Of a stretch of 35,613 nt of DNA, positions 3,331 to 32,960 are shown one piece after another (the stretch's first letter is position 1; every line of letters begins with the position of its first letter). Location: NCBI GenBank assembly GCA_016929445.1, contig JAFGIU010000038.1:1-35613 (forward strand), read 5' to 3'. Under the pieces are notes generated by a model. It searched no databases, was not told the origin of the DNA, and saw only the letters and a list, made by a program, of their open reading frames with translations. The position numbers and the translations under genes were made by a program. The DNA is from Candidatus Omnitrophota bacterium. Its GTDB lineage: Bacteria; Omnitrophota; Gorgyraeia; JAFGIU01.

Positions 3331-5025
3331 TTAGATATCTTCAATTTGGCTGACGCGCTGGATCTCCTCAAGCGAAGTCAAGCCCTGCCGGACCTTGGCC
3401 AAGCCCTCGTCACGCAGAGAAGGGCAACCCGCGGATCGAGCTTCCTGGGCAATCCTGTCCGCAGGCACATGATCCATGATCAAACGGCGGATGGACTCGG
3501 TTACAGGGAGAATCTCGTAAATCCCCGTGCGTCCCCGGTACCCTGTGTTGCGGCACTCCGCACAACCCTTTCCCCGGAATACGGAACTCCCCGCGATTTC
3601 AGGCATGCCATAGCGCGAAGCCTCTTCCTGTGAAACCGTGTGGGGCTCGCGGCAGTGCTCGCAGATCAAGCGCACCAGCCGCTGGGCCATAAAGGCCTGA
3701 ACTGAAGAGGACACCAAATAGGGCTCCAATCCCATATCCAAAAGCCGGGTCACCGCCCCGGCCGCGCTATTGGTGTGCAAAGTGGAAAACACCAAGTGAC
3801 CGGTCAAGGCCACACGAATGGCGATCTCGGCAGTTTCCAGATCGCGAACCTCTCCGACCATCATGACATCCGGATCGTGCCTCAACATGGCACGCAGAGT
3901 GTGGGCAAAACTCAGACCGATCTGAGGCTGCACCTGCACCTGGCTGATCCCGCGCAACTGGTATTCAATCGGGTCCTCGATGGTGACAATCTTTTTGTCC
4001 TGGGTGTTGATCTTCGACAGGCAGGCGTACAAAGTAGTGGACTTGCCGCTTCCGGTCGGCCCGGTCACAAACAGAATACCGTGGGGCTTCACAATCAGCT
4101 CTTCAATGATACCCAGATCCCGCTCGGAAAACCCCAAGTGGGCAAGATCATAGAGCATGACCCGGCTCAGGACGCGGATCACCAAGCTCTCGCCGCAGGG
4201 CGTAGGCAAGGTCGAAATACGCAGGTCCAGCTCCTCACCGCCGACGCGCACTTGGGTGCGGCCGTCCTGCGGCAAGCGGCGTTCGGCAATGTTCAAATTG
4301 GCCATGATTTTGATGCGCGATGCAATGGCCGATTGAAAATGCCTCACTTCCGGAGGCACTGCGGTCTCGTGCAACACGCCGTCAATCCGGAATCGAATGC
4401 GCAATTCATTTTCGTAAGGCTCCATGTGGATATCTGTGGCGCGTTCCTTGTAGGCCTGTAAAAAGATCTGATTGACGAAGCGCACAACCGAAGCGTTCTC
4501 AACCATGTCCTCCAAATTATCGCCGGAGACATCGGCCTCGACCCGGGGGGCATCCTCGCGTTGAGACATTTCTTCGATTGTGCCCGCGCCCAGGCCGTAC
4601 CAGTCCTCAATCGCCTCGCGTATTTCCTCTTCCTCGGCCAATACAGGCTGGACTTCACAGCCCAAAAGAAGGCGCACATCATCCAGAGCATGCATGTCCA
4701 ATGGATTGGCCACCGCCACTTGGAGACGCTTGCCTTCCAGTCCTAAAGGCACAAGGCTGTACCGGCTGGCCAGCCGCGCCGGCACTTTATTGAGCACTTG
4801 CGGACTCACGGAGAGGTCCTTGAGGCGCACAAACTGCACGCCCAGGTCTTTGGCAAGAAGCGGGAGGGACTCGTCTTTGGGCACCAATCCCTGGGCGGCC
4901 AGAACATCGGCCAGAGCGCGGCCGCTCTGTTCGCACTCACGCCAGGCAGAGGCCAAATCTTCGCGCGTGATGCGGCCCTGTGCCACCAGAACTTCGCCAA
5001 GTTTTTGGGATTGACCACTTTGCAT
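3331..5025 (-). CDS. PilB/GspE-type secretion or pilus assembly ATPase
   Basis: This is the cytoplasmic hexameric ATPase that powers type IV pilus or type II secretion assembly. From the ATG at 5025 it is 564 aa, the usual PilB/GspE length. An N-terminal MshEN-type domain (residues about 8-145) begins KLGEVLVAQGRIT. The ATPase domain has Walker A GPTGSGKST (322-330), the Asp box, Walker B around MMVGEVRD (388-395), the His box HLVFSTLHTN (410-419) and a zinc-type tetracysteine (C455/C458 and C488/C491). The frame stays open to 5145, but those extra codons lie in a MITE-like repeat; ATGs at 5100 and 5079 are alternatives and none has a clear Shine-Dalgarno. No other pilus genes are present, so pilB cannot be told from gspE. 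Confidence 0.9.
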   Translation of the reverse strand: MQSGQSQKLGEVLVAQGRITREDLASAWRECEQSGRALADVLAAQGLVPKDESLPLLAKDLGVQFVRLKDLSVSPQVLNKVPARLASRYSLVPLGLEGKRLQVAVANPLDMHALDDVRLLLGCEVQPVLAEEEEIREAIEDWYGLGAGTIEEMSQREDAPRVEADVSGDNLEDMVENASVVRFVNQIFLQAYKERATDIHMEPYENELRIRFRIDGVLHETAVPPEVRHFQSAIASRIKIMANLNIAERRLPQDGRTQVRVGGEELDLRISTLPTPCGESLVIRVLSRVMLYDLAHLGFSERDLGIIEELIVKPHGILFVTGPTGSGKSTTLYACLSKINTQDKKIVTIEDPIEYQLRGISQVQVQPQIGLSFAHTLRAMLRHDPDVMMVGEVRDLETAEIAIRVALTGHLVFSTLHTNSAAGAVTRLLDMGLEPYLVSSSVQAFMAQRLVRLICEHCREPHTVSQEEASRYGMPEIAGSSVFRGKGCAECRNTGYRGRTGIYEILPVTESIRRLIMDHVPADRIAQEARSAGCPSLRDEGLAKVRQGLTSLEEIQRVSQIEDI

Positions 5026-5094
5026 GGGTATAGTTTCGTTGCTGGGGGAGCTGGGGTCAAGAGGATTGGGGTCCGTCATCAGAACCGCAGAGTC

Positions 5095-5179
5095 CGTCAT
5101 GGCGAGCCGAGCCTTGCGCGCGGCGCGGCCATCTTTGCGGAACATAGATCACCACGTCGCTTCGCTCCTCGTGATGACG
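5095..5179. repeat. MITE-like inverted-end repeat, copy A
   Basis: An ~85-bp element with inverted ends (cgtcatggcgag at the left, ctcctcgtgatgacg at the right) and an internal block atctttgcgga ... acatagatc. The same ends and block recur at 32608-32683 and 32743-32829. Degenerate end fragments extend on both sides (ccgtcatcag near 5073 and aggatgac near 5200). It fills the gap between the fabF stop codon and pilB and overlaps the possible N-terminal codons of pilB. No transposase of its own is visible. Confidence 0.75.
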
Positions 5180-14897: not shown

Positions 14898-15423
14898 ATC
14901 GGTAATCTCGCGTTTTGACCAAGTTGCCTTCCGATTCCGGAACCACCTCTGCCCAAGCGTGCTGCACTGCCGCGACACCAAGATTTCGTAGGATAGCACA
15001 GGCGCCAATTTGCTGCAAGCTCTTCTTTGCCCAGCCTTTCCGATAAGGAGGATCCATCAGGATGAGATCGAATTGCTCCCCCCGATTTCCGAGTTTGGGG
15101 AGGACAATTTCTGCGGAATGCGGGTGGATTCGGGCGCAACCCAGAGCCTTTTCCCCGAGCACTTTTTGTAAATTCTTGCGAATAAATTGGATGCAACTCG
15201 ATTGGGACTCAACAAAATCCACTGATGCCGCGCCCCGGGACAAGGCCTCCAGTCCCAGGGCCCCGCTCCCCGCGTAGAGCTCCAGGACGCGGCTGCCCTC
15301 GATACGCGGCCCGAGGATGTCAAAGAGCGCCTTGCGCACCCGCGACTCTGTGGGCCGGATCCCCGGCGGCGTTAGAAGGAGCGCGCCCTTGTATTCCCCT
15401 GCTAAAATTCTGAGTGATGCCAT
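14839..15423 (-). CDS. rsmD: 16S rRNA (guanine-N2)-methyltransferase RsmD
   Basis: This enzyme methylates a guanine (G966 in E. coli) of 16S rRNA. The 194-aa protein begins MASLRILAGEYKG and shows RPTESRVRKALFDIL, the SAM-binding VLELYAGSGALGLEALSRGA (46-65) and the catalytic MDPPY (123-127). The last ~20 codons run through the start of coaD in another frame. The ATG is immediately preceded by the GTTTCAC flank of REP cluster 1, so its translation-initiation region lies in repeat-associated sequence and has no clear Shine-Dalgarno. Confidence 0.94.
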   Translation of the reverse strand: MASLRILAGEYKGALLLTPPGIRPTESRVRKALFDILGPRIEGSRVLELYAGSGALGLEALSRGAASVDFVESQSSCIQFIRKNLQKVLGEKALGCARIHPHSAEIVLPKLGNRGEQFDLILMDPPYRKGWAKKSLQQIGACAILRNLGVAAVQHAWAEVVPESEGNLVKTRDYRYGDTGITCYATQGSLSGDI

Positions 15424-15440
15424 GTTTCACGTCCGTTCCA

Positions 15441-15480
15441 CGGTGCCAGGCACCGGTGCCAGGCACCAGTGCCTGACACC
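15441..15480. repeat. REP-like palindrome cluster 1 (recG/rsmD gap)
   Basis: Three tandem near-palindromic units of the type GTGCCAGGCAC: two direct, the last reading GTGCCTGACAC. The left flank at 15423-15440 carries atgtttcac and gttccacgg, shared with other copies. The cluster ends 6 bp from the recG stop codon and fills the whole gap to rsmD. Confidence 0.85.
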
Positions 15481-15486
15481 GAGATG

Positions 15487-19390: not shown

Positions 19391-19416
19391 TTGCCTTCCT
19401 ATGTTTCACAGTTTCA

Positions 19417-19470
19417 CGGTGCCAGGCACTGGTGCCAGGCACCGGTGTCAGGCACCGGTGTCAGGCACCG
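19417..19470. repeat. REP-like palindrome cluster 2 (four units, overlaps rpe end)
   Basis: Four tandem units (GTGCCAGGCAC type, two with GTGTCAGGCAC), one more than in the other clusters, preceded on the left by atgtttcac and gtttcacgg. All four units face the same way; the inverted last unit seen elsewhere is missing. The rpe reading frame runs into it and stops inside at 19448. Confidence 0.85.
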
Positions 19471-20110
19471 AACTGCACCAACTCCGCAGGCGTTGGATCG
19501 GCTCTGCATAATCTGCAGCCCCGAACACATACGTTCCTGCCACCAAGATTTCAGCGCCTGCCCGGGCTGCAAGAGGGCCTGTCTCGTGCGTAATGCCTCC
19601 GTCAATTTCCAGATCCCCCTTAAAGCGCGCGCGGATGGCCGCGACCTTGGGCAGAACCTCCTCCATAAAGGACTGCCCGCCAAAGCCCGGAAACACCGAC
19701 ATCACCAGCACCAGATCCGCCCCCTCCAAGTAAGGGAAGATCGCCTCGGCCGGAGCATCCGGATTCAGAGACACCCCCGCGCGCACACCCAGGGACTTAA
19801 TCTGTTTGAGGACCTCACCCGTGCGCTCCTTACAGACTTCCCAGTGGACCGTGAGCACATCGCTGCCGGCCTTGGCAAAAGGCTCCAGGTATTTCTCCGG
19901 GTTGTCAATCATCAGATGCACATCCAAGGGCAGTTGCGTGTGCGGGCGCATGGCCTTGACAATGACCGGACCCAGCGTCAGGTTATTGACGAAGTGCCCG
20001 TCCATTACATCCACGTGCAGCCAATCCGCACCGGCCTTTTCGCAAGCCTTGATCTCCTCCCCCAGGCGGGAAAAATCACAAGACAGCAGCGAGGGGGCAA
20101 TTCGTATCAT
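19448..20110 (-). CDS. rpe: Ribulose-phosphate 3-epimerase
   Basis: It interconverts ribulose 5-phosphate and xylulose 5-phosphate in the pentose phosphate pathway. The TIM-barrel protein (220 aa) shows IAPSLLSCDF, LHVDVMDGHFV (metal ligand His and catalytic Asp), VHLMI, VMSVFPGFGGQSF and EIDGGI. The ATG overlaps the stop codon of the M16 peptidase gene (ATGA). The last eight codons or so (SVPDTGA and stop) come from REP cluster 2, so the natural C-terminus has been replaced or extended by the repeat. Confidence 0.95.
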   Translation of the reverse strand: MIRIAPSLLSCDFSRLGEEIKACEKAGADWLHVDVMDGHFVNNLTLGPVIVKAMRPHTQLPLDVHLMIDNPEKYLEPFAKAGSDVLTVHWEVCKERTGEVLKQIKSLGVRAGVSLNPDAPAEAIFPYLEGADLVLVMSVFPGFGGQSFMEEVLPKVAAIRARFKGDLEIDGGITHETGPLAARAGAEILVAGTYVFGAADYAEPIQRLRSWCSSVPDTGA

Positions 20111-22887: not shown

Positions 22888-23681
22888 TCCCCGTGCGCTG
22901 CCTTAATGAGCGGCCGCACAAAACGCTTGAGCGCGTTGACTGCTGCGGCTCCCTTTTTGCCTTCCACACTTTTGACGACTGCGCTGCCGACAATGATGCC
23001 GTCCGCGTGACGGCGAAGGCGGCGGACCTGCTCCTGCTTGGACACGCCGAATCCGACGCAGACCGGAAGGCGGCTCTGGTGACGGACGCGGTCGAGTTGG
23101 CCCGTGAGGTCTGCGGGCAGATCGGCGCGTGCGCCTGTGGTGCCTGTGATCGAAACATAATACAGGAAGCCACGGCAGACGCGGTTGATGCGGCGCAGGC
23201 GGTCGGCCGAGCTCGTGGGCGCAGCTAAAAAGATGGTGTCTATGCGCGCGGCGCGGGCTGCCGGGATAAGATCCCCGGCTTCCTCCGGCGGGAGATCCGC
23301 GCAGATCAGGCCGTCCACGCCGGCCGCGCGGGCCTGGCGCATAAAGTGGGCCAGGCCCCGGCGAGCCACGATATTGTAGTAGGTCATCATGACGATCGGG
23401 ATCCCGGAGCGCTTGCGGACTTGCGCGGCCAAGTCCATGGCCTTTTGCGCGGTCATGCCCGCTGCCAGGGCTTGAGTGGAGGCTTTTTGGATGGTGGGGC
23501 CGTCTGCGAGCGGGTCGGAAAACGGAATGCCGATTTCAATGATGTCCGCGCCCTGGTCCTCGAGCGTGCGGATGAGATCCAGACACGTGCGCGTGTTCGG
23601 ATAGCCCGCCGTAAGATACGGAATAAAGGCCGATTGACCGGCCTTCTTGAGTCTCGTAAAAGCCTGCGTGATCCGCGTCAT
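22884..23681 (-). CDS. trpA: Tryptophan synthase alpha subunit
   Basis: It cleaves indole-3-glycerol phosphate and passes indole to TrpB. The 265-aa TIM-barrel has FIPYLTAGYP, catalytic E49 and D60 in IEIGIPFSDPLADGP (the same residue numbers as in Salmonella TrpA), YYNIVARRGLAHF, ADLPPEEA and FLAAPTS. AGGGA lies ~5 bp before the ATG. It follows trpB but is separated from it by REP cluster 3, an unusual break for this pair. No other trp genes are in the window. Confidence 0.96.
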   Translation of the reverse strand: MTRITQAFTRLKKAGQSAFIPYLTAGYPNTRTCLDLIRTLEDQGADIIEIGIPFSDPLADGPTIQKASTQALAAGMTAQKAMDLAAQVRKRSGIPIVMMTYYNIVARRGLAHFMRQARAAGVDGLICADLPPEEAGDLIPAARAARIDTIFLAAPTSSADRLRRINRVCRGFLYYVSITGTTGARADLPADLTGQLDRVRHQSRLPVCVGFGVSKQEQVRRLRRHADGIIVGSAVVKSVEGKKGAAAVNALKRFVRPLIKAAHGE

Positions 23682-23694
23682 ATTTCCCTAATCC

Positions 23695-23735
23695 CGGTGC
23701 CAGGCACCGGTGCCAGGCACCAGTGCCTGACACCG
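23695..23735. repeat. REP-like palindrome cluster 3 (between trpB and trpA)
   Basis: Same three-unit structure as cluster 1: two GTGCCAGGCAC units and one inverted GTGCCTGACAC. Its edge lies 1 bp from the trpB stop codon. The atgtttcac left flank is degenerate here (atatttccc). Confidence 0.85.
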
Positions 23736-23736
23736 T

Positions 23737-24930
23737 TCATAACTCCTCTCCCAACACTTTAGCGATTTGGTTGACGTCCTTGTCCCCCCGTCCTGAAAGG
23801 CATACCGCAATCACCGAGGACTTGGACCACTTCTTGGCCACTTTCTTGAGTTGGTAAATGGCATGCGCGGTCTCCAGCGCCGGGAGAATGCCTTCCGTAC
23901 GCGCCAACAGCTGAAAACCCTCCAGGGCCTGCGCATCGGTCACACCCGCATACTGCGCCCGCCCCGAATCCTTATAAAAGGAATGCTCGGGCCCCACGCC
24001 CGGGTAGTCCAGGCCCGCGCTCACGGAATGCGGAAGCTGAACCTGCCCGTCAGCGTCCTGCAATAAACGGCTCGCGCTGCCATGCAAATACCCTGTGCTA
24101 CCCTTGGCCAAGGTAGCCGAGTGCTTCTGCGTATGCAGCCCATGCCCCGCAGCCTCCACCCCCAGCATCTGTACCTTTTCATCCTTATAAAAGGGATGGA
24201 AGAGGCCGATCGCATTGGAGCCTCCTCCCACACAGGCCACCAAAAGATCCGGCAGCTTGCGTTCAGACCGGAGGATTTGCCTGCGTGCCTCAATGCCGAT
24301 CACGGATTGGTACTCACGCACCATTTCCGGATAGGGATGCGGCCCCACCACCGATCCGATCACGTAGTGCGTGGTGCGCACATGGGTCACCCAGTCGCGA
24401 ATGGCCTCGTTGGTGGCATCCTTGAGCGTGCGGGATCCGGAATCCACAGGAATCACGGTAGCTCCTAACTGCTTCATTTTAAAAACGTTAAGAGACTGTC
24501 TATGGACATCCTCGCGGCCCATGTACACCACGCACTCCAAGCCGAAAAGCGCACAGGTCGTGGCCGTGGCCACCCCATGCTGGCCTGCCCCGGTCTCGGC
24601 AATAATGCGCTTCTTGCCCAGCCGGCGCGCCAACAGAACCTGGCCCAAGGTGTTGTTGAGCTTATGGGCACCCGTATGCAGCAGGTCCTCGCGCTTCAAA
24701 TAAATCTTGGCCCCGCCGAGGGCCTCGGTCAGCCGGCGCGCAAAATAAAGCGGCGTGGGCCGGCCGGCATAATGTTCCAGATAGTGTTTGAGCTCCTTCC
24801 TGAAGGAAGGGTCTTTTTTGAATCGACGGAAGGCGGCCTCCAGTTCATCCAGTGCAACCATGAGGGTCTCCGGCACATACTTGCCGCCGTAGGGGCCGAA
24901 GTGTCCGCGTTTGTCGGGGATTCTGGGCAT
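23737..24930 (-). CDS. trpB: Tryptophan synthase beta subunit
   Basis: The PLP enzyme that condenses indole with serine. The 397-aa protein begins [22 protein letters not shown], the standard TrpB1 start, and has RPTPLYFA, the PLP lysine K90 in [11 protein letters not shown], and a phosphate-binding [10 protein letters not shown]. The C-terminal SGRGDKD is also typical. Length is normal. The ATG has no strong Shine-Dalgarno and follows the four-helix protein gene by 27 bp. Confidence 0.97.
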
Positions 24931-24957: not shown

Positions 24958-25374
24958 TTATACGGAGCTTGGTACCGCCGGTTCGGCAGGCTCAATCATC
25001 CGCAATCTCTTCATCAGGGCGGCAATGCTCGCGCGCGCTCTGCGCACTTGGTCATACAGGGCATGGAATGCTTCCTCCGACAGGTAGCCCATGGCCCTGG
25101 CCACGTGTAAACACGATTGTACCTCAGAAGTTGCCCGCGTGGCTATACTTAGGGCATCGTCCGGCGGCTCCAAGGCCTCCGCATCAAGCGCGTCAGCCAA
25201 ACGGCTCATGAGCGTGACCGAGGCCTCCCGGAGTTGCTCCTTCAGGGGCAGGTTCCGCCCCAGCTGGCCCTGGTGTATCAAATCATAGACCGCAACAGTC
25301 AGAGTCTTGGCTTCCTTCCATGCAGGCATCTCCTCCAAGTTGATCCCGGCCCTCATCTCGATTTTCCGTGGCAT
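24958..25374 (-). CDS. Four-helix bundle protein (S23/IVP family)
   Basis: A 138-aa mostly helical protein of the four-helix-bundle family first described in 23S rRNA intervening sequences (TIGR02436-like). Visible features are PAWKEAKTLTVAVYDLIHQ, LREASVTLMSRLADAL and a final SCLHVARAMGYLSEEAFHALYDQV. The start at 25374 is set by AAGGAGA 7 bp upstream; the longer frame to 25452 runs into REP cluster 4. These proteins occur as free-standing genes of unknown function and near diversity-generating retroelements, but no reverse transcriptase is present here. Confidence 0.72.
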   Translation of the reverse strand: MPRKIEMRAGINLEEMPAWKEAKTLTVAVYDLIHQGQLGRNLPLKEQLREASVTLMSRLADALDAEALEPPDDALSIATRATSEVQSCLHVARAMGYLSEEAFHALYDQVRRARASIAALMKRLRMIEPAEPAVPSSV

Positions 25375-25410
25375 CGTATTCTCTCCTTCTCTATGTTTCG
25401 TTTCGTGTTT

Positions 25411-25450
25411 CGGTGTCAGGCACTGGTGCCAGGCACCGGTGCCTGGCACC
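25411..25450. repeat. REP-like palindrome cluster 4 (overlaps RAYT 3' end)
   Basis: Three units: GTGTCAGGCAC, GTGCCAGGCAC and an inverted GTGCCTGGCAC. A left flank with atgtttcgt and gtttcgg corresponds to the other copies. The RAYT gene runs into it, and its TGA stop codon at 25418-25416 lies in the last unit. Confidence 0.85.
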
Positions 25451-26093
25451 ATTCCTCTTTCACTCTGTCTATGAAGTCCCGGGATCCCAGAAACCGGTTC
25501 TCAATGACTTCGTCCTCTAAATTGCGCTTCCTCGCGAGTCCCTCAATCGTAAACTCGTGGAATCTTCGCCGCACACTCTCAAAATCCTCCGTCTTGCCGT
25601 TTTTCCTGAACCAATCCAGAATGTAATCCCGGTCCAACAGATCATTCTGTTCCTCGCTCATGTACCACCCGTAACTGCTCCAAGGGTACTGTTCAGGCCA
25701 ACGCGTCAGTCCCGACCGGACGGGATTCAGATGGATATAGCGATTCACTTCCAAAGCGTAAGTCTCCTCCTCCACAAGTATGGGCTTGTACCGCCCCTGA
25801 AAAACATGCCCTACCCTTCCATAGGTCCGGTTAACGTATTTCGTATAGGCGGTATGGACGGCTTGCATGGCAAGGTGGATGGGGAAAGCTCCTGCCCTGA
25901 TCATAAGATGGATATGATTCGGCATCAGCGCATAGGCCAAAACCGTGCAGTCATACTTCTTAACATTTTCTCTGAGCAGATTCAGATACTTGAAGTAATC
26001 CCGGTCTGACAGGAATACCGGTTCGCGATTATCACCGCGCGCAATGACATGATAGAGGGCACCTGGGTAATAGATATGATTGGGCCTTCCCAT
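25416..26093 (-). CDS. REP-associated tyrosine transposase (RAYT, IS200-like Y1 family)
   Basis: A single-domain HUH/Y1 transposase of the TnpA_REP type, 225 aa from the ATG at 26093. It begins MGRPNHIYYPGALYHVIARG and has the HUH pair H60/H62 in MPNHIHLM, GHVFQGRYK, and the tyrosine-bearing NRYIHLNPVRSGL (Y119; Y112 is the other nearby Tyr). The C-terminal ~12 codons and the stop codon lie in REP cluster 4, so the enzyme's own gene carries its presumed substrate. The frame opens at 26168, but that part overlaps spoVG; the start at 26093 is 10 bp after the spoVG stop codon. RAYTs in other bacteria act on REP palindromes; that this one handles the six clusters here is an inference. Confidence 0.92.
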   Translation of the reverse strand: MGRPNHIYYPGALYHVIARGDNREPVFLSDRDYFKYLNLLRENVKKYDCTVLAYALMPNHIHLMIRAGAFPIHLAMQAVHTAYTKYVNRTYGRVGHVFQGRYKPILVEEETYALEVNRYIHLNPVRSGLTRWPEQYPWSSYGWYMSEEQNDLLDRDYILDWFRKNGKTEDFESVRRRFHEFTIEGLARKRNLEDEVIENRFLGSRDFIDRVKEEWCQAPVPGTSA

Positions 26094-26103
26094 CGCTTCA
26101 CCG

Positions 26104-26406
26104 CTAATTTGATTCCGCAGGCAAAGGCGACAGCTCTGCCTGATCGGAGTCCTGTTCTGCCTTTTCATAGGCAGCCATGATTGCCTGGTGAAGCCGCGAC
26201 CGGAGGTCTCCCTTGAGAGGCTTGACCTTGTCGTACCAGAGACCGTCCTTTCCCTGTTCGCGGGGCATGCTCACAAACAACCCGTTACGGCTGTGAATAA
26301 GCATGATTCCCTTGACGAGCAATTCCTCGTCAAATTCGACATCCGCAAAGGCCTTGACACGATTCTCGCCCTCGATCCTGTGCAGTCGCACCACATTGAT
26401 TTCCAT
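26104..26406 (-). CDS. spoVG: SpoVG-family regulatory protein
   Basis: A 100-aa nucleic-acid-binding protein of the SpoVG family, known in other bacteria as a regulator of septation, virulence factors and RNA. It starts MEINVVRLHRIEGENRVKAFADVEFD and has LVKGIMLIHSRNGLFVSMPRE, the most conserved family segment, then a helix and an acidic tail. AAAGGAG lies 7 bp before the ATG. It is headed by the promoter at 26485-26512 and is probably cotranscribed with the RAYT gene, which begins 10 bp after its stop codon. It is not evidence for sporulation. Confidence 0.92.
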   Translation of the reverse strand: MEINVVRLHRIEGENRVKAFADVEFDEELLVKGIMLIHSRNGLFVSMPREQGKDGLWYDKVKPLKGDLRSRLHQAIMAAYEKAEQDSDQAELSPLPAESN

Positions 26407-26512: not shown

Positions 26513-26688
26513 TACCTAAACGCATGTAAATTATTTTGCATACGTAAGTTACTGATACTTCGATTATATTAAGTTCCATGAAAGAAAACTTTACTAAGGT
26601 TGGCTCGGAGGGCGCGACTTCTCAATATTACCGAAAAAGTCTTAGATAATACGCAGCTTAGTTTGATGTTTCACGAGGGTGTGTTTCA
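26513..26688. other. AT-rich intergenic region upstream of spoVG
   Basis: About 175 bp between the spoVG promoter and REP cluster 5. It holds a 23-codon plus-strand frame from ATG 26578 with no ribosome-binding site, not called as a gene, and two copies of a gtttcacg-like sequence next to the REP (atgtttcacga, gtgtttcacgg). Nothing else is recognised. Confidence 0.4.
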
Positions 26689-26730
26689 CGGTGCCAGGCA
26701 CCGGTGCCTGGCACCCGTGCCTGACACCGG
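26689..26730. repeat. REP-like palindrome cluster 5 (after giant LamG/DUF2341 gene)
   Basis: Three units: one GTGCCAGGCAC, one inverted GTGCCTGGCAC and one inverted GTGCCTGACAC, so the turn from direct to inverted units comes one unit earlier than in clusters 1, 3, 4 and 6. The flanks atgtttcac and gtttcacgg are present on the left. It ends 6 bp from the stop codon of the giant gene. Confidence 0.85.
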
Positions 26731-26736
26731 TTTTGA

Positions 26737-29700
26737 TTACCACTGTTTGGGGCGTTTGATGCCGTCGGCGGGTACAAAGCCGCCGTGGCGTATATATTTG
26801 GGATTGCCGATGTAGATGTGCGGGTCACCACGGCCGACGCTCGGGGCATCCAGGTCGGACTCCTGGCGAATCAGCAGAATATCGGTCTGCAGGAGGTTCT
26901 CGATCGGTGAAGTCGAATACGCACCGCTGCGCAAGCGGCCGCGGATGTAATACAAGTCCGAAGACCCATTCACGGAGTATAAGGACCAATCTAAGGGCTC
27001 TCTCCACAAGAAAGTGCCTTCCCGGGTGACTAGGCTTGTCCCAAACACACTCTCTCCCACCCCCAAGGGACTCCATGCGCTCCCATTCCAATATTCATAG
27101 CCCATACCCAAAGCCGAAGACTCGTAGTCGTCGAAGAAAATGGTCCCCGAGGTACTTGAATCCACACCTTCAGCTCCCAAGATTACATATCCAACATCAA
27201 CATTGTCATTGTCTATACCAGAAACAGTCTCAGCATTCTCGCCGTCAACAGCAAAACTAAAATAGCCATTATTGGCCCCAGACGCACTCGCCGCATGCCA
27301 TTCCAATTGGATAAGATGCCACTGATTCATATCGAGCAACACCGTACTGCTATATTTGGTGTAACTTCCTCCTGTTGCATCGAGGACTTGAAGAAAGTGA
27401 CCAAAACCCGCAGAGTATTCCATGTTTATTAGAAAGGCATCATCCCAAGGGTTGTTGTACTCCACAACATCGAGGATTGTGAAATAATCTCCGTCTCCCA
27501 TCGCCAAATTATTCGGATGGAACCAAAACCTAGCACGCCAATCGGTTGCCCCAGGCACCTCATCCTTCACCCAAATATTGTTCGTATCGTCAATCACCGC
27601 CTGAAGGCCGTAGTCCCCGGTGTGCGCTGCGGCGGCAGTCACCGAGAGATCCCCGCTGTCCGTCTGGGTTTCATACCAGGAAGACATGTTGCCGCTCTCG
27701 AAACCGTCGCTAAAGGTATTACTGGAAGTCACGCCCACAGTCCGCAGGTCGGTGTTGAGCCCCGTAAACTTGGAGTCCGAACCCAAGAACAAATATTCCC
27801 CCCGGTTACTGGCATCATCGGCTTCAAAGGCCAGCTCCAGATCACGCGAGGTATCGTTCAAGTACTCGGCGGAAGGCGCGCCTTTTACCGCGTCCCATAC
27901 TCGGAACTCGTCGATAACGCCCAAGCAAGGATCTGTCCCGTCGCTCTTATTGCCAATTCTCAAATTGTACGACGATATATCTATGCTGCCGTGATTGGTA
28001 GTCTGTAAACCTTCATTAACGCCATCCAAATAAAGATAGTTCAGATTGTTGTCTGTGTCATAGGTAAGGCGCACATGATGCCAGGCCCCATCGAAGATAT
28101 TGACTTCCGTTGAAGACCAGTTGCTCCAAGTCGCGTTGTTTACGGCAAAAACAATATAGGTGTCCGCTGTGCCGCGTTGCAAATCAAACTGGTCGTCGCC
28201 TTCGGTGGTTGTGAAGAATGTCAGATAATCGTTTGAGGTTCCGGTTAGCTTGTACCAAAAGTCAATTGTCCCGGTTGTGGCTCCGACATGGTCTAACATA
28301 GGAACCTGGAGATACTCCCCGTTGGCATCGATCAGCGCCCCATTCCCCACCTTACCGGCCACAAAGGTGGCATTGGTCACCGTGCCGGCGCCACCCACCT
28401 CCGGGCTGGTCACGTCGCCGCTGGAGTCCAAGGTCGAATACCAGGTCAGGTCGGACGCGTACTCCAGGCCGCCCTCGGCCACCTGCTCCAGACTCGGGTT
28501 GCCCCCGCCGTAAATGCGAAATTCATCGATGATGCCACTGGCTGGGCTGCCTGCAGCGCGGCTCACATGAATCGCTGAATCGAGAGTCAGATTAGCGGAA
28601 TTGTAGTCATCGGTATCATCTGTATGCGGCGGCTCCTGCCCGTTCAGGAATATACGAACTTGCTCGGACGCAGTGGCAGTATCATCCCATTCCACCCGAA
28701 TATGCACCCATTCATCAGCAATCCAGGAATAGTTCGAAGAAGTGATTGTGGTGTTAACTGAAGTCGCATTTGAGTTGATCCAAGATTCCAAGTCATTGTC
28801 CGCCTGCTTGTACAAACGCATGCTGTTGCTGCCGTCGTAGTACATTAAGTATAGATAGTGCAGAGTGTTGTCATTATGGTTGTAATCCGGCTGATACCAA
28901 AACTCGATCGCTCCCTTGGCCTTATTGAAATTCCCGGCATCCGCTCCGGTGATATTGACGCGAAACTCTTCGTTTGCGTCAAAGAGCGCCCCGTTTCCAT
29001 AGCGGCCCGCAACATAGGTCACACCCGCATCCACTGCCCCTGCACTCCCCACATCCGGGCTCGTCACCGCTGTCGAACTCTCCAGAGTTGACGCCCACAA
29101 CAACTCGTCCGCAAAAAACGCCGCGCTCACAGGCTTGCGCGCCACGGTGTAGTCCTTGGCATCGACCAAAGCGCCTTCCACACCATCCACCAAGAATGCC
29201 TGCGGCATCTCCGAATCCCGCCACCCGCGCACCTTGTACACAGGCGTGTGGCGCACGCCCGGGCCGATGTAGGACTCGCTGACCACCAAGTCATCGATGA
29301 ACCACTGATTGTTGACGGAATCCATTCGCAACCGGATCTCGTCGTGGTCGGAGGTGCTGCCTGTGGCCAATCCCGTGGCGCTATACACCAACACCCCGTC
29401 CAGCCACATATCCACGGTTCCGGCTGTGGCGTGGCGCAGCACCCTGGCCTCTATGCAGTACCAACGGCCGGCTTCGATAACGCTGTCACTTCCGGCTGCG
29501 TTCCAAGAGCCGCCATTATAGGTTTCCAAAAGCAGCTCATTTTGACCACTCTTTTCCACGAGCCCGAAGCCGGCGTTGGACCCATCCGAAGTGTCCAACA
29601 AGTACATAAAGACATCACCGTTGTTCTCCCCTGACCACCCCTCATAATCCAGCATGTAGTAGAAACGAACGTAGAGTTCACTGTATGTGCCCGGCCAGTC

Positions 29701-32655
29701 ATAGTCGGCCACTGCAGTACCCGCGCTACCGCCTTGAGTCATCCGGACCGCATACTGCCCGGAATGCACAGTGCCGGTTTCATTCCCCGCAATCGTGGAC
29801 CCGGTATTCCACCCTCCAACCCAGCCATCCCCCCCGTCGGTCAGGTCCGAATCCCCTCCCTCAAACCCGCACAAGCACACCGGGGCCCCATGCGCGGTCA
29901 CCGGCTCCAGCGCCATCACAAGCTCGTCGGAGTCGAACTGGGCGGTATACGCGCCCTCTCCGGCGTTAATATTGGCCGGGCCGATGGGACTGGCACTCAC
30001 AACCACATCGTCAAAATAGAGGATATTTCCGGCTGTGGCTGACCAGGTTCCTCCGAAATACTTGTGATCCGCATCCAGGGCGCCGGTATCAATGCCGGAC
30101 TGCGATAGAACATTCACCCCATCCACCCACAAGTCAACGCTCCCCGCAGATCCGTCCCGCACCACCTTGAATTCAATGCAGTACCACTGTCGGGTGTTGA
30201 GATAACCGTCGCTGCCTGCGGCGTAATAATTATCCACGTCATCCTTAACCTTGAGTTCCAGATTCCCGGCTGCATCTTGTTGGATCATCAGCTGGGTATC
30301 GTCACCGGTGTAACTTGTGTCGTTCAGATTGACCAAGTAAAGAGTGCTGCCGGTACTCAAGGTCTCTGTGTCGATGTAAATATAGAAACGCATATACACA
30401 GTCGACATATTGCCTTCTTTGTCCACGTAAGAAGACTGAGAGGCATCTGTCGTGACCTTCATGGAATAGGCGCCGGAATAAACTTGGGCAGTCGCATTAC
30501 CCACAATTGTGGCCGACCCTGAGGCATTTCCGTCATCCCAACCATCCCCTCCGTTTGACAGATCCGGATCCGCGCCTTCAAAATCACACGCAAACAGCAC
30601 CTCCGCGCCGAGCTCCTCCCGATCATCGAGTTCGTCCCAGGCGGCCCCCTGCCAGAACTCCAACGCATCCGGACTCGTCAGATCGTGGAGGAGACCGGCG
30701 CGCTCCGCAAAGGTGTCCAACTCGGTCTGCGGCCTAAGAAGAATGCACCAGTCAATGGTGCGCCTTCCGTCCACCAGGATGCCGCCCGCAGTGCCGTATT
30801 CATAACAACGCAGGTTTTCGCCGGAAGTGGTGTATTGCCACATCGGGCTATCGGTGGGGGGCGCAAACCGGCGGTTCAGAGGAAGACTCACAAAGACATC
30901 CTGATACCCGCCCGTTCCCTGAAGGACGCAATACTGCTCGGAAGGGTCAAAAGCCGTGTTGGGCGCCCGGGAAGTCTCCCCGGCTCCGTTACCGGAAAGC
31001 AGGTTGGTTTCGAATACTCCCACAGTTGCCGGGTCCACAGTAATGGGTATCCACCAAAAATCATCACTGCCCCCCGCAGTGTCCAAGGTAATGCCGCTGT
31101 GGAAGTCATAATCCGAATGCACGAACACGCCTTCGGGGGTGAAGGTGTATTCCTCCAGAACGGAAACCGCATCCGTCCCGTCAGTCACGTATTGCCAGTT
31201 TGTCGATGAGCTCACGTGCCCTTCAACGCGGATCCTGACCCTCACCGGTGTCGCCTCCAATACGGTGGTTTTCCGGTAATCATCATTTGCAAGACTATAT
31301 GTCACTCCCTCTTCATGAATGAATGGGCTTACAGACCGCACCACTTCATCCGGATTCGCGGCATCTTCATAGAGATCATAAAACATCAAGTATTCATCAC
31401 TCCCTAGTGGATCATCGGTGCGCAGGACAGCCCGGTAGCGGTTGGGGACATCGATCTGGATGGTGGTGTCAGTCTGCGTAACCGTGAGCCACGGCGGCCC
31501 GGATTCCTCGGTGCCCTTGGAATAAAAGGCCGTAATGTTGTTGTTGATCGTGTTGTAGGTGGTGCTTAGCCAATCCTCGGTACGCGCCTCGGTGGAAAAG
31601 CGCAATTCGTCCAGGAAACCGTCGGTATAGGAGGCCCCGCCGAACCACAGGTCATCGTCCGACGGGTAGCAGGTCCCACTGGTCGAACCCGTTGACGTAT
31701 CGGTGTCGCTGCCGTTCAAATAAACACGGGTCGTGTCGCCGTCGCGCACCCCAGCCACATAGTACCAGGTGTCCACAGCAATGGTGCCGGCCGTGCCGTA
31801 GGCATAGACCGAGTCGCTCGAATTGTTGCGGTAGACAAACAAGGGACGGTTTGAATAGTCCTTACTCATGGCCACATAATACGACTGGTAGGGGGCGCCA
31901 TTATGACCCTTAAAAACAATGTCCGCATTTGAGGCCCGAGTGATAGGCAAATTGTCCATGCGGACCCAGCCCTCCACGGTCATATCCCCGGCCGGCGTAA
32001 AATCATCGTGGTCATCGATCTGTATTCCGTCATTGCTGCCGTCCAACTGGATGGCGCCGTCCCCTATCCCGGCCGCATCCGGATTGGAGCCAGTGCCGTC
32101 AATGGTGACACTGTCCGAATCGTGGCCGTTCCGAGTGCTGTCCTTGAAGTCCGTGGCCCCTGTGGTCGTTTCCTGCAAGTGATGCACGAAAAGAAAGCTT
32201 TCATCCCAGGTTTCCTGAACATTCTGCTGATCAGAAGCGTCCGGGTTGCCGTAGTACATATAGATCACCGTGTCGTCGTCACAGTCCAAGACCGGCACCT
32301 TGACCCAGGCCAGCAAGGCGCCCGTTGAACTGGAGTAGCTCTCGATCTCATGCATGAGCTTGTTGCGGTGGGTCGCGTCCGTAAACAAGATGTCCTGCCC
32401 CCCGGATTGGGCCTTGTCGCGCAAGTCCGTGTCCGTTTCCTCGATCATTACCGGGAAGCTATACAGATCAGAGGTCCCGCTGACCCGCGCGTTGTCTATT
32501 GTGATCTTCTTACGGCAACTCCAGTCGGGATGATGCCAGGAGGCGGCCCGAGCGGGGGGCGCAGTCATCGCGAGGAGCGCGCACACAACCGTCATTGCGA
32601 AGAGCGTCGTCATTGCGAGCCCGAAGGGCGCGGCAATCTTTGCGGAACGGGACAT
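26737..32655 (-). CDS. Giant secreted DUF2341/LamG multidomain protein
   Basis: About 1970 aa from the ATG at 32655; the frame stays open to a GTG at 32865. With this start there is a good signal peptide (MSRSAKIAAPFGLAM... ending PPARA, cleavage before ASW). Numbered from 32865, it has a DUF2341 domain (about 115-205, ending YMYYGNPDA), a LamG domain (about 240-450), an unassigned region (450-750), two jelly-roll-like units starting FACDFEGAD (about 755) and CGFEGGDSD (about 996), two further LamG-like modules (about 1254 and 1472), and a C-terminal module (about 1688 onward) that is split by an extra ~210-aa jelly-roll insert. No membrane anchor or sorting signal is seen at the C-terminus. 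Carbohydrate binding or adhesion is likely; no catalytic site was recognised. No clear Shine-Dalgarno marks the start. Confidence 0.85.
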   Translation of the reverse strand: MSRSAKIAAPFGLAMTTLFAMTVVCALLAMTAPPARAASWHHPDWSCRKKITIDNARVSGTSDLYSFPVMIEETDTDLRDKAQSGGQDILFTDATHRNKLMHEIESYSSSTGALLAWVKVPVLDCDDDTVIYMYYGNPDASDQQNVQETWDESFLFVHHLQETTTGATDFKDSTRNGHDSDSVTIDGTGSNPDAAGIGDGAIQLDGSNDGIQIDDHDDFTPAGDMTVEGWVRMDNLPITRASNADIVFKGHNGAPYQSYYVAMSKDYSNRPLFVYRNNSSDSVYAYGTAGTIAVDTWYYVAGVRDGDTTRVYLNGSDTDTSTGSTSGTCYPSDDDLWFGGASYTDGFLDELRFSTEARTEDWLSTTYNTINNNITAFYSKGTEESGPPWLTVTQTDTTIQIDVPNRYRAVLRTDDPLGSDEYLMFYDLYEDAANPDEVVRSVSPFIHEEGVTYSLANDDYRKTTVLEATPVRVRIRVEGHVSSSTNWQYVTDGTDAVSVLEEYTFTPEGVFVHSDYDFHSGITLDTAGGSDDFWWIPITVDPATVGVFETNLLSGNGAGETSRAPNTAFDPSEQYCVLQGTGGYQDVFVSLPLNRRFAPPTDSPMWQYTTSGENLRCYEYGTAGGILVDGRRTIDWCILLRPQTELDTFAERAGLLHDLTSPDALEFWQGAAWDELDDREELGAEVLFACDFEGADPDLSNGGDGWDDGNASGSATIVGNATAQVYSGAYSMKVTTDASQSSYVDKEGNMSTVYMRFYIYIDTETLSTGSTLYLVNLNDTSYTGDDTQLMIQQDAAGNLELKVKDDVDNYYAAGSDGYLNTRQWYCIEFKVVRDGSAGSVDLWVDGVNVLSQSGIDTGALDADHKYFGGTWSATAGNILYFDDVVVSASPIGPANINAGEGAYTAQFDSDELVMALEPVTAHGAPVCLCGFEGGDSDLTDGGDGWVGGWNTGSTIAGNETGTVHSGQYAVRMTQGGSAGTAVADYDWPGTYSELYVRFYYMLDYEGWSGENNGDVFMYLLDTSDGSNAGFGLVEKSGQNELLLETYNGGSWNAAGSDSVIEAGRWYCIEARVLRHATAGTVDMWLDGVLVYSATGLATGSTSDHDEIRLRMDSVNNQWFIDDLVVSESYIGPGVRHTPVYKVRGWRDSEMPQAFLVDGVEGALVDAKDYTVARKPVSAAFFADELLWASTLESSTAVTSPDVGSAGAVDAGVTYVAGRYGNGALFDANEEFRVNITGADAGNFNKAKGAIEFWYQPDYNHNDNTLHYLYLMYYDGSNSMRLYKQADNDLESWINSNATSVNTTITSSNYSWIADEWVHIRVEWDDTATASEQVRIFLNGQEPPHTDDTDDYNSANLTLDSAIHVSRAAGSPASGIIDEFRIYGGGNPSLEQVAEGGLEYASDLTWYSTLDSSGDVTSPEVGGAGTVTNATFVAGKVGNGALIDANGEYLQVPMLDHVGATTGTIDFWYKLTGTSNDYLTFFTTTEGDDQFDLQRGTADTYIVFAVNNATWSNWSSTEVNIFDGAWHHVRLTYDTDNNLNYLYLDGVNEGLQTTNHGSIDISSYNLRIGNKSDGTDPCLGVIDEFRVWDAVKGAPSAEYLNDTSRDLELAFEADDASNRGEYLFLGSDSKFTGLNTDLRTVGVTSSNTFSDGFESGNMSSWYETQTDSGDLSVTAAAAHTGDYGLQAVIDDTNNIWVKDEVPGATDWRARFWFHPNNLAMGDGDYFTILDVVEYNNPWDDAFLINMEYSAGFGHFLQVLDATGGSYTKYSSTVLLDMNQWHLIQLEWHAASASGANNGYFSFAVDGENAETVSGIDNDNVDVGYVILGAEGVDSSTSGTIFFDDYESSALGMGYEYWNGSAWSPLGVGESVFGTSLVTREGTFLWREPLDWSLYSVNGSSDLYYIRGRLRSGAYSTSPIENLLQTDILLIRQESDLDAPSVGRGDPHIYIGNPKYIRHGGFVPADGIKRPKQW
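32564..32605. repeat. Tandem end fragments of the MITE-like repeat
   Basis: Two extra left-end fragments, gtcatcgcgaggagc at 32564 and cgtcattgcgaagagc at 32590, lie next to copy B. On the minus strand they, with copy B, read three times as TTC/CTC-GCR-ATG-AC, coding LAMT, FAMT and LLAMT in the signal peptide of the giant protein. Confidence 0.7.
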
Positions 32656-32683
32656 AGATCGCTTCACTGCGTTCGCGATGACG
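32608..32683. repeat. MITE-like inverted-end repeat, copy B
   Basis: 76-bp copy with ends cgtcattgcgag and gttcgcgatgacg and the internal block caatctttgcgga ... gacatagatc shared with copies A and C. It lies inside the 5' part of the giant LamG reading frame and contains the ATG at 32655 chosen as its start. Confidence 0.8.
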
Positions 32684-32742
32684 GAAGGGGCTGGGCTCGC
32701 AAGGACGGTCCGGACCTTGCCGCGGGGTGACAGCGGGGTCTT

Positions 32743-32829
32743 CGTCATTGCGAGGAGGCCGCAGGCCGACGAAGCAATCTTTGCGGAGCAGCCGGACATA
32801 GATTGCTTCGCCTTCGGCTCGCAATGACG
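32743..32829. repeat. MITE-like inverted-end repeat, copy C
   Basis: 87-bp copy, the best preserved of the three, with inverted ends cgtcattgcgag and ctcgcaatgacg. Inner subterminal arms gaagcaatct and agattgcttc are exactly inverted and make a long hairpin possible. It lies 60 bp from copy B and in the same orientation. It carries no coding sequence of its own. Confidence 0.82.
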
Positions 32830-32869
32830 GTTTGTGGCGATCTTTAGTGGTGTCATAAGGCTCACTTTC

Positions 32870-32890: not shown

Positions 32891-32917
32891 CCGAGGGCAT
32901 GTTTCACGCATGTTCCA

Positions 32918-32957
32918 CGGTGTCAGGCACCGGTGTCAGGCACCAGTGCCTGACACC
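32918..32957. repeat. REP-like palindrome cluster 6 (after upstream LamG gene)
   Basis: Three units: two GTGTCAGGCAC and one inverted GTGCCTGACAC. The left flank has atgtttcac and gttccacgg, as in cluster 1. It ends 3 bp from the stop codon of the upstream LamG gene. Confidence 0.85.
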
Positions 32958-32960
32958 AAG

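Follow-up and report, generated by a model that had tools for sequence, protein, structure and literature searches.

Signal peptides change rapidly in evolution and cannot be traced to a common origin, and the locus described here raises the question of whether a dispersed repeat can supply one. The locus is the 5' end of a gene for a giant exported protein on the minus strand of contig JAFGIU010000038.1 (35,613 nucleotides, the whole of which is called the window hereafter), from the Candidatus Omnitrophota assembly GCA_016929445.1, where copies of a palindromic repeat overlap the predicted signal peptide. Among named relatives, the best for a protein of the window (43%) is likewise from Candidatus Omnitrophota. 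Our best reading, to which we assign a probability of about three in four, is that monomers of this repeat, probably one of the repetitive extragenic palindromes (REPs), are kept in signal peptides since one of their frames already encodes a signal-peptide-like segment.

The repeat and the N-terminus of the focal gene

The focal genome (2.43 Mb, 137 contigs) contains 124 repeat ends with at most one mismatch, compared to 12 for the reversed pattern. Individual cases were read in the stretches around repeats, and the counts of cases refer to those stretches. Exact ends occur in 123 of 292 genomes of the class, with a maximum of 194 in one genome. A full copy is laid out as CGTCATTGCGAG..GAAGCAATCT..AGATTGCTTCGC..CTCGCAATGACG, its two palindromic halves meeting head to head and CGTC standing outermost. 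The monomer, AGATTGCTTCG..x..CTCGCAATGACG, is 36 or 45 nt long and, when read outward from the centre, gives R-L-L-R-x(4 or 7)-L-A-M-T; in this LAMT frame, basic residues are followed by a hydrophobic stretch including an ATG.

Within the window, 11 matches to the 12-mer end (up to 2 mismatches) were found, 7 of them clustered at 32563-32829. Copy A (32743..32829) is a complete dimer of the head-to-head type, with terminal inverted repeats that match perfectly over 11 bp, and its predicted hairpin is strong (−31.1 kcal/mol, z = −7.2). Copy B (32608..32683), which is 75% identical to copy A over 87 nt, carries CGTC tags at both termini. Three repeat ends, which had been predicted to read through in one frame on the minus strand, do so: CTCGCAATGACG, the exact end of copy B (32619-32608), reads LAMT; TTCGCAATGACG (32601-32590), with 1 mismatch, reads FAMT; and CTCGCGATGACT (32574-32563), with 2 mismatches, reads LAMT again, after which the frame continues into APPARA|A. 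The second is an extra tandem end (CGTCATTGCGAA, 32590..32601) 18 bp from the end of copy B, and the third (AGTCATCGCGAG, 32563..32574) lies 27 bp further. Another extra tandem end, directed inward, flanks copy B at its opposite side (32696..32707; CGTCCTTGCGAG on the minus strand).

On the minus strand, an open frame of 2,042 codons runs from 32865 to 26737. As best read from the open reading frame (ORF), Pfam matches and codon score, the gene occupies 26737..32655 and encodes a protein of 1,972 aa whose start codon is the ATG at 32655, which lies at the centre of copy B, in accordance with the original prediction. Its domains are DUF2341, three LamG-type domains and a polysaccharide-lyase-like domain; the DUF2341 match (32194..32400, minus strand) is the first of the mature protein. 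The N-terminus directly 5' of this domain, MSRSAKIAAPFGLAMTTLFAMTVVCALLAMTAPPARA|ASWHHPDW, comprises a predicted signal peptide of 37 residues (32545..32655, minus strand) followed by A. No in-frame ATG, GTG or TTG exists between the repeat region and the start of DUF2341, and translation must therefore begin within or upstream of repeat sequence.

When scored with a simple rule set, the N-terminus from 32655 showed the features of a Sec signal peptide: a basic n-region (net charge +2), an uncharged h-region (mean Kyte-Doolittle [KD] hydropathy 2.6) and an AxA site, ARA, ahead of the mature start. Among the candidate starts only 32655 combines all three; those at 32613 and 32595 lack charge. 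For their part, the distant DUF2341 relatives L060 and L114 have a signal peptide immediately ahead of the same W..W motif. The N-terminus from 32655 is thus a probable signal peptide, and on this sequence evidence 32655 is most likely the translation start of the focal gene. Translation would start in the middle of copy B and pass three repeat ends into APPARA|A, and the gene may earlier have carried a different signal peptide.

The repeat ends had been proposed to form the core of the signal peptide. They account for most of the 37-residue peptide, in which the n-region and the larger part of the h-region derive from the repeat; APPARA, at the cleavage site, does not, and the third end is the weakest of the three. 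It had also been suggested that the ends were duplicated in such a way as to lengthen the hydrophobic stretch, and this did not hold. Tandem ends 21 to 27 bp apart are found in many other copies without a signal peptide, noncoding ones among them; copies at L093, L094, L095, L098, L099 and L100 have them. They are a trait of the family, so those of the focal gene did not arise to lengthen its signal.

Parallel cases and frame preference

Parallel cases were found in the focal genome and in relatives. Within the focal genome, a full repeat copy provides, with its terminal ATG, the start codon of a Poly_export/SLBB gene (L094), whose N-terminus is MTRALAALPALALLAAMTMAPAPAEA; many orthologues in the class have ordinary signal peptides at that place. 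In a CBM30-like protein (L101), MTATDLPCAMTGLLLLTAAFCFVTPAFA follows several repeats; the GTG start and the RR of the n-region of a DUF255 thioredoxin (L098) are apparently drawn from a repeat variant; and a TPR/SH3 protein (L069) has an exact repeat end inside its core.

Further repeat copies were observed near other genes of the same genome. The giant secreted proteins at L098, L099, L102 and L104 (frames of 1,486 to 2,583 codons) carry in-frame copies right after the signal peptide, and L095 and L093, paralogues compared with L099, have no repeat at that place. In the window itself, the start region (MFRKDGRAARKARLAMTDSAVLMTD) of a T2SSE gene, encoding a type II secretion/pilus ATPase (3334-5179), overlaps another copy, so that its start codon is probably also repeat-borne.

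The stretches around repeats were read in eight further genomes. Two of these, G048 and G073, which belong to one family different from that of the focal genome, contain 14 exported-protein ORFs with a whole LAMT-frame monomer as the N-terminal n/h-region, as in MKKE-RLLRPLRVLAMT-ALFLLPSAAFA, MR-TRLLRALCTLAMT-AVFAIPAFA and M-RLLRSPKFIGGLAMT-FLFLPPAFA. The monomers are mostly 36 or 45 nt long, and the frame is thus kept; the same stretch of 39 nt stands in two of the 14, which are different genes (L230:3063 and L300:5954). Many of the 14 match exported families in Pfam: SBP_bac_1, CBM30, LolA_like, BatD, SPOR, ceramidase and F5_F8_type_C. The SBP_bac_1 transporter protein carries RLLRALRALAMT in G048 and RLLRPPKFFGGLAMT in G073, and its orthologues in G164, G177, G151, G110, G017, G094 and G000 have plain, repeat-free signal peptides, all of which stop at one position relative to the mature protein. 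Repeat-free signal peptides were thus found among the orthologues of two parallel genes, this one and the Poly_export/SLBB gene. An S41 protease has a repeat end in G048 only. A DUF255 gene of G048 was rejected as a parallel, as it has an evident downstream start. Repeat-formed signal peptides, as predicted from these N-termini, are general in the class.

Frame usage was analyzed at repeat ends with coding sequence downstream in the nine genomes, the frame being chosen from the downstream host codons only; the focal gene did not reach the codon threshold and was left out. Of the ends, 39 were read in the LAMT frame, 39 in the frame that gives RND and 10 in the frame with a stop. Over the next 12 host residues the KD value exceeded 1.0 in 18/39 LAMT cases, compared to 1/39 RND cases (Fisher P = 7e-6; Mann-Whitney P = 2e-4), and the 21 hydrophobic cases comprised 18 in LAMT, 2 in the stop frame and 1 in RND (P = 1e-6 versus equal thirds). 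Interior insertions in soluble proteins were mostly in the RND frame.

Interior insertions were also observed in individual enzymes. In two pairs of genomes, orthologous enzymes carry RND insertions at what seems to be one shared interior site: L305 near 2900 (G073) and L238 near 3051 (G220), LeuRS-like by their motifs, and L309 near 3069 (G073) and L221 near 3064 (G048), CobB-like on the same kind of evidence. Both pairs are intragenic insertions like the Rickettsia palindromic elements (RPEs), outside Rickettsiales. An Lnt-like (apolipoprotein N-acyltransferase) gene (L306:2610-4136) has a LAMT-frame repeat in the membrane segment that separates LNT_N from CN_hydrolase.

In the mechanism that we propose, a LAMT-frame monomer would fit the loose needs of the n/h-region of a Sec signal peptide. 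Since the frame resembles that region, insertions at the 5' end of exported-protein genes would be kept in the LAMT frame. The n-region and the h-region would each come in part from the repeat, in some genes along with the start codon, and the c-region with its AxA site would stay of host origin. Insertions in soluble parts would survive in the RND frame, each site filtering the frame that it bears. The resulting peptides would then function as export signals.

The strongest competitor, with not quite an even chance, is neutral tolerance: insertion near gene starts is random, and LAMT-frame filler is simply not purged, nothing having been recruited. Nearly any hydrophobic filler will do in a signal peptide as long as it is in frame, orthologues without the repeat, such as those of the SBP_bac_1 protein, keep their signal peptides, and soluble interiors retain the hydrophilic RND frame, so that each site keeps whichever frame it tolerates. 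However, the repeat provides basic residues in several genes, and in the focal gene and L094 it provides the start codon as well. Where it gives the start codon or the sole basic residues, export likely depends on the repeat now, judging from the predicted N-termini, and with such dependence the long-term outcome would be recruitment, even from a neutral origin. More speculative than either is an extension of the recruitment reading in which the monomer serves, in some Omnitrophota, as a portable and spreading signal-peptide module whose transposition builds, replaces and homogenises the export signals of unrelated secreted proteins, the element gaining a harmless niche in return. We consider this extension, taken with the niche, rather doubtful.

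Start of translation and remaining alternatives

Among the readings that concern the focal gene itself, the one that survives best is that the third end is not repeat sequence at all: LLAMTA would be ancestral signal-peptide sequence, repeat-like by chance, and the repeat would consist of copy B plus one extra end only. Its two mismatches and the ordinary composition of LLAxTAPPARA for a signal peptide agree with this. However, tandem ends at such spacing are common in the family, and the chance of a third in-frame end within about 60 bp is about 0.001 (a rough hand estimate from the density outside the cluster). We therefore regard this reading as somewhat unlikely.

An upstream start has considerably lower probability. 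The frame is open across copy A to 32865, and translation from ATG 32856 or GTG 32865 would place a 70-residue repeat-derived extension ahead of the hydrophobic segment; RPE-bearing N-termini are reported as expressed in Rickettsia (Di Nocera et al. 2013, PMC3733652). However, the mean codon log-odds were −0.06 for 32656-32865 and rose to 0.08 over the signal peptide and to 0.21 over the mature sequence, so that coding-like codon usage begins only at approximately the repeat-borne ATG. Neither 32856 nor 32865 yielded a signal-peptide-like N-terminus, and the relative L212 has an open repeat frame 5' of an evident downstream start. The open frame 32656..32865 (minus strand) is thus probably an untranslated leader.

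Least probable of all is that the repeats form only a 5' leader or regulatory hairpin, the real start having been lost through pseudogenization or an assembly error and the signal peptide being accidental: repeats of this kind mostly lie between genes, N-terminal REPs may in many cases be extragenic according to Di Nocera et al. (PMC3733652), and copy A folds strongly, but the 1,972-aa frame is intact without a downstream start codon, its signal peptide adjoins the first domain as in the DUF2341 relatives, and there are many parallels with a biased frame.

Several points weigh against recruitment. Downstream of 32655 the h-region has about 24 residues, a length at which it could serve as a signal anchor, and no good Shine-Dalgarno sequence precedes any of the focal candidate starts. 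Signal peptides were scored with the rule set and not with SignalP. Close orthologues of the focal gene were absent from its own genome, 39 relatives, 384 class genomes and a scan of GTDB contigs; the searches gave only distant DUF2341 relatives, informative on domain position, and an empty site for the focal gene is thus missing. The gene trees of the SBP and S41 proteins did not resolve and insertion events could not be counted, so that the independence of the G048 and G073 insertions rests on their differing monomer variants only. L069, L228 and L329 show just the 12-nt end, without a full monomer. Finally, the sequences are fragmented draft assemblies.

Recruitment of the repeat as an export signal, as put forward in the original prediction, nevertheless gains support from the lack of a later start, the signal features from 32655, the codon score, the DUF2341 relatives and the many parallel cases in the same repeat frame with their repeat-free orthologues. 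If true, a mobile repeat that recurrently becomes a signal peptide in one frame would be a concrete, testable source of export signals. For annotation, it would mean that some junk-like repeat N-termini may be real signal peptides and that some open repeat frames upstream of genes are not.

Relation to known systems

The repeat had been described as resembling a miniature inverted-repeat transposable element. It is indeed a dispersed palindromic repeat, but it is better termed a set of CGTC-tagged REP monomers and head-to-head dimers, probably non-autonomous; no Rfam match was found at the repeat. In Di Nocera et al. (PMC3733652), CGTC-tagged REPs are defined by a CGTC (or TGTC/CCTC) tag, a stem of 8 to 9 bp opening with complementary A-T pairs, a loop of 4 to 5 nt, a tail near CCA, a mostly head-to-head dimeric arrangement and the lack of a flanked transposase gene. 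The present repeat shares the terminal tag, which copies A and B bear at each outer end and which occurs in most genome copies, with TGTC variants; the A-T opening of the stem (ATTGC/GCAAT); and the head-to-head dimers with outward tags, represented by copies A and B and many others. No dedicated transposase was found adjoining the repeats, in a search that covered the Y1_Tnp type and the flanks of the Y1_Tnp gene in the window. It differs from the REPs of that account in having about 5 bp of perfect pairing outside a variable inner hairpin and a tail, CT, unlike CCA.

Two Y1_Tnp genes are present in the focal genome, a likeness to the REPtrons of RAYT/Y1 transposases. Unlike in a REPtron of the CGTC repeat, the gene in the window (25416-26168, IS200-like/RAYT-like) adjoins a second dispersed repeat, GGTGCCAGGCACC, which has seven copies in the window, including those at 15416-15483, 19392-19472, 23670-23737, 25386-25453, 26664-26731 and 32893-32960. 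Two copies flank the gene, and GGTGCCAGGCACC may thus be its REP substrate. A homologue of the 23S rRNA intervening-sequence protein (24958-25452) lies directly 3' of it. Elsewhere in the genome, peptides like VDSRLRGNDM and VIPAQAGIHLND occur in the coding frame at L099:8117-15670 and L080:5076-6413, which suggests that a third type of repeat has inserted into genes.

In Rickettsia, RPEs are palindromes inserted in frame into genes, and they can use several frames (PMC10969869 and PMC3733652); the latter paper places RPE-4, RPE-6 and the Neisseria dRS3 among the CGTC-tagged REPs. The present repeat resembles RPE-4 and RPE-6, compared by features and not by sequence alignment, in being a CGTC-tagged palindrome in frame within genes; in-frame insertions were found within the LeuRS-, CobB- and Lnt-like proteins and the giant proteins. 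In contrast to RPEs, one frame recurs here in signal peptides and another in soluble interiors, and the host phylum is different. This opposite preference shows protein context filtering palindromic selfish DNA, and it carries the RPE story to another phylum.

Use in signal peptides is not described for CGTC-tagged REPs in the consulted portion of Di Nocera et al. (PMC3733652), and a literature search found no REP-derived signal peptides beyond the cases of Delihas (2007, PMC2759123). There, a YAPL/RU-2 element forms part of the predicted signal peptide of Yersinia YPO1552, relatives of which have unrelated signal peptides, and other RU-derived membrane segments are described. The kind of phenomenon is thus already known; our search turned up no earlier account of its scale, of so compact a monomer, of the empty sites or of the rule on frames. 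Compared to YPO1552, a single predicted case with a 168-bp element, the present repeat involves many genes, a monomer of 36 to 45 nt, orthologous empty sites and a statistical frame bias.

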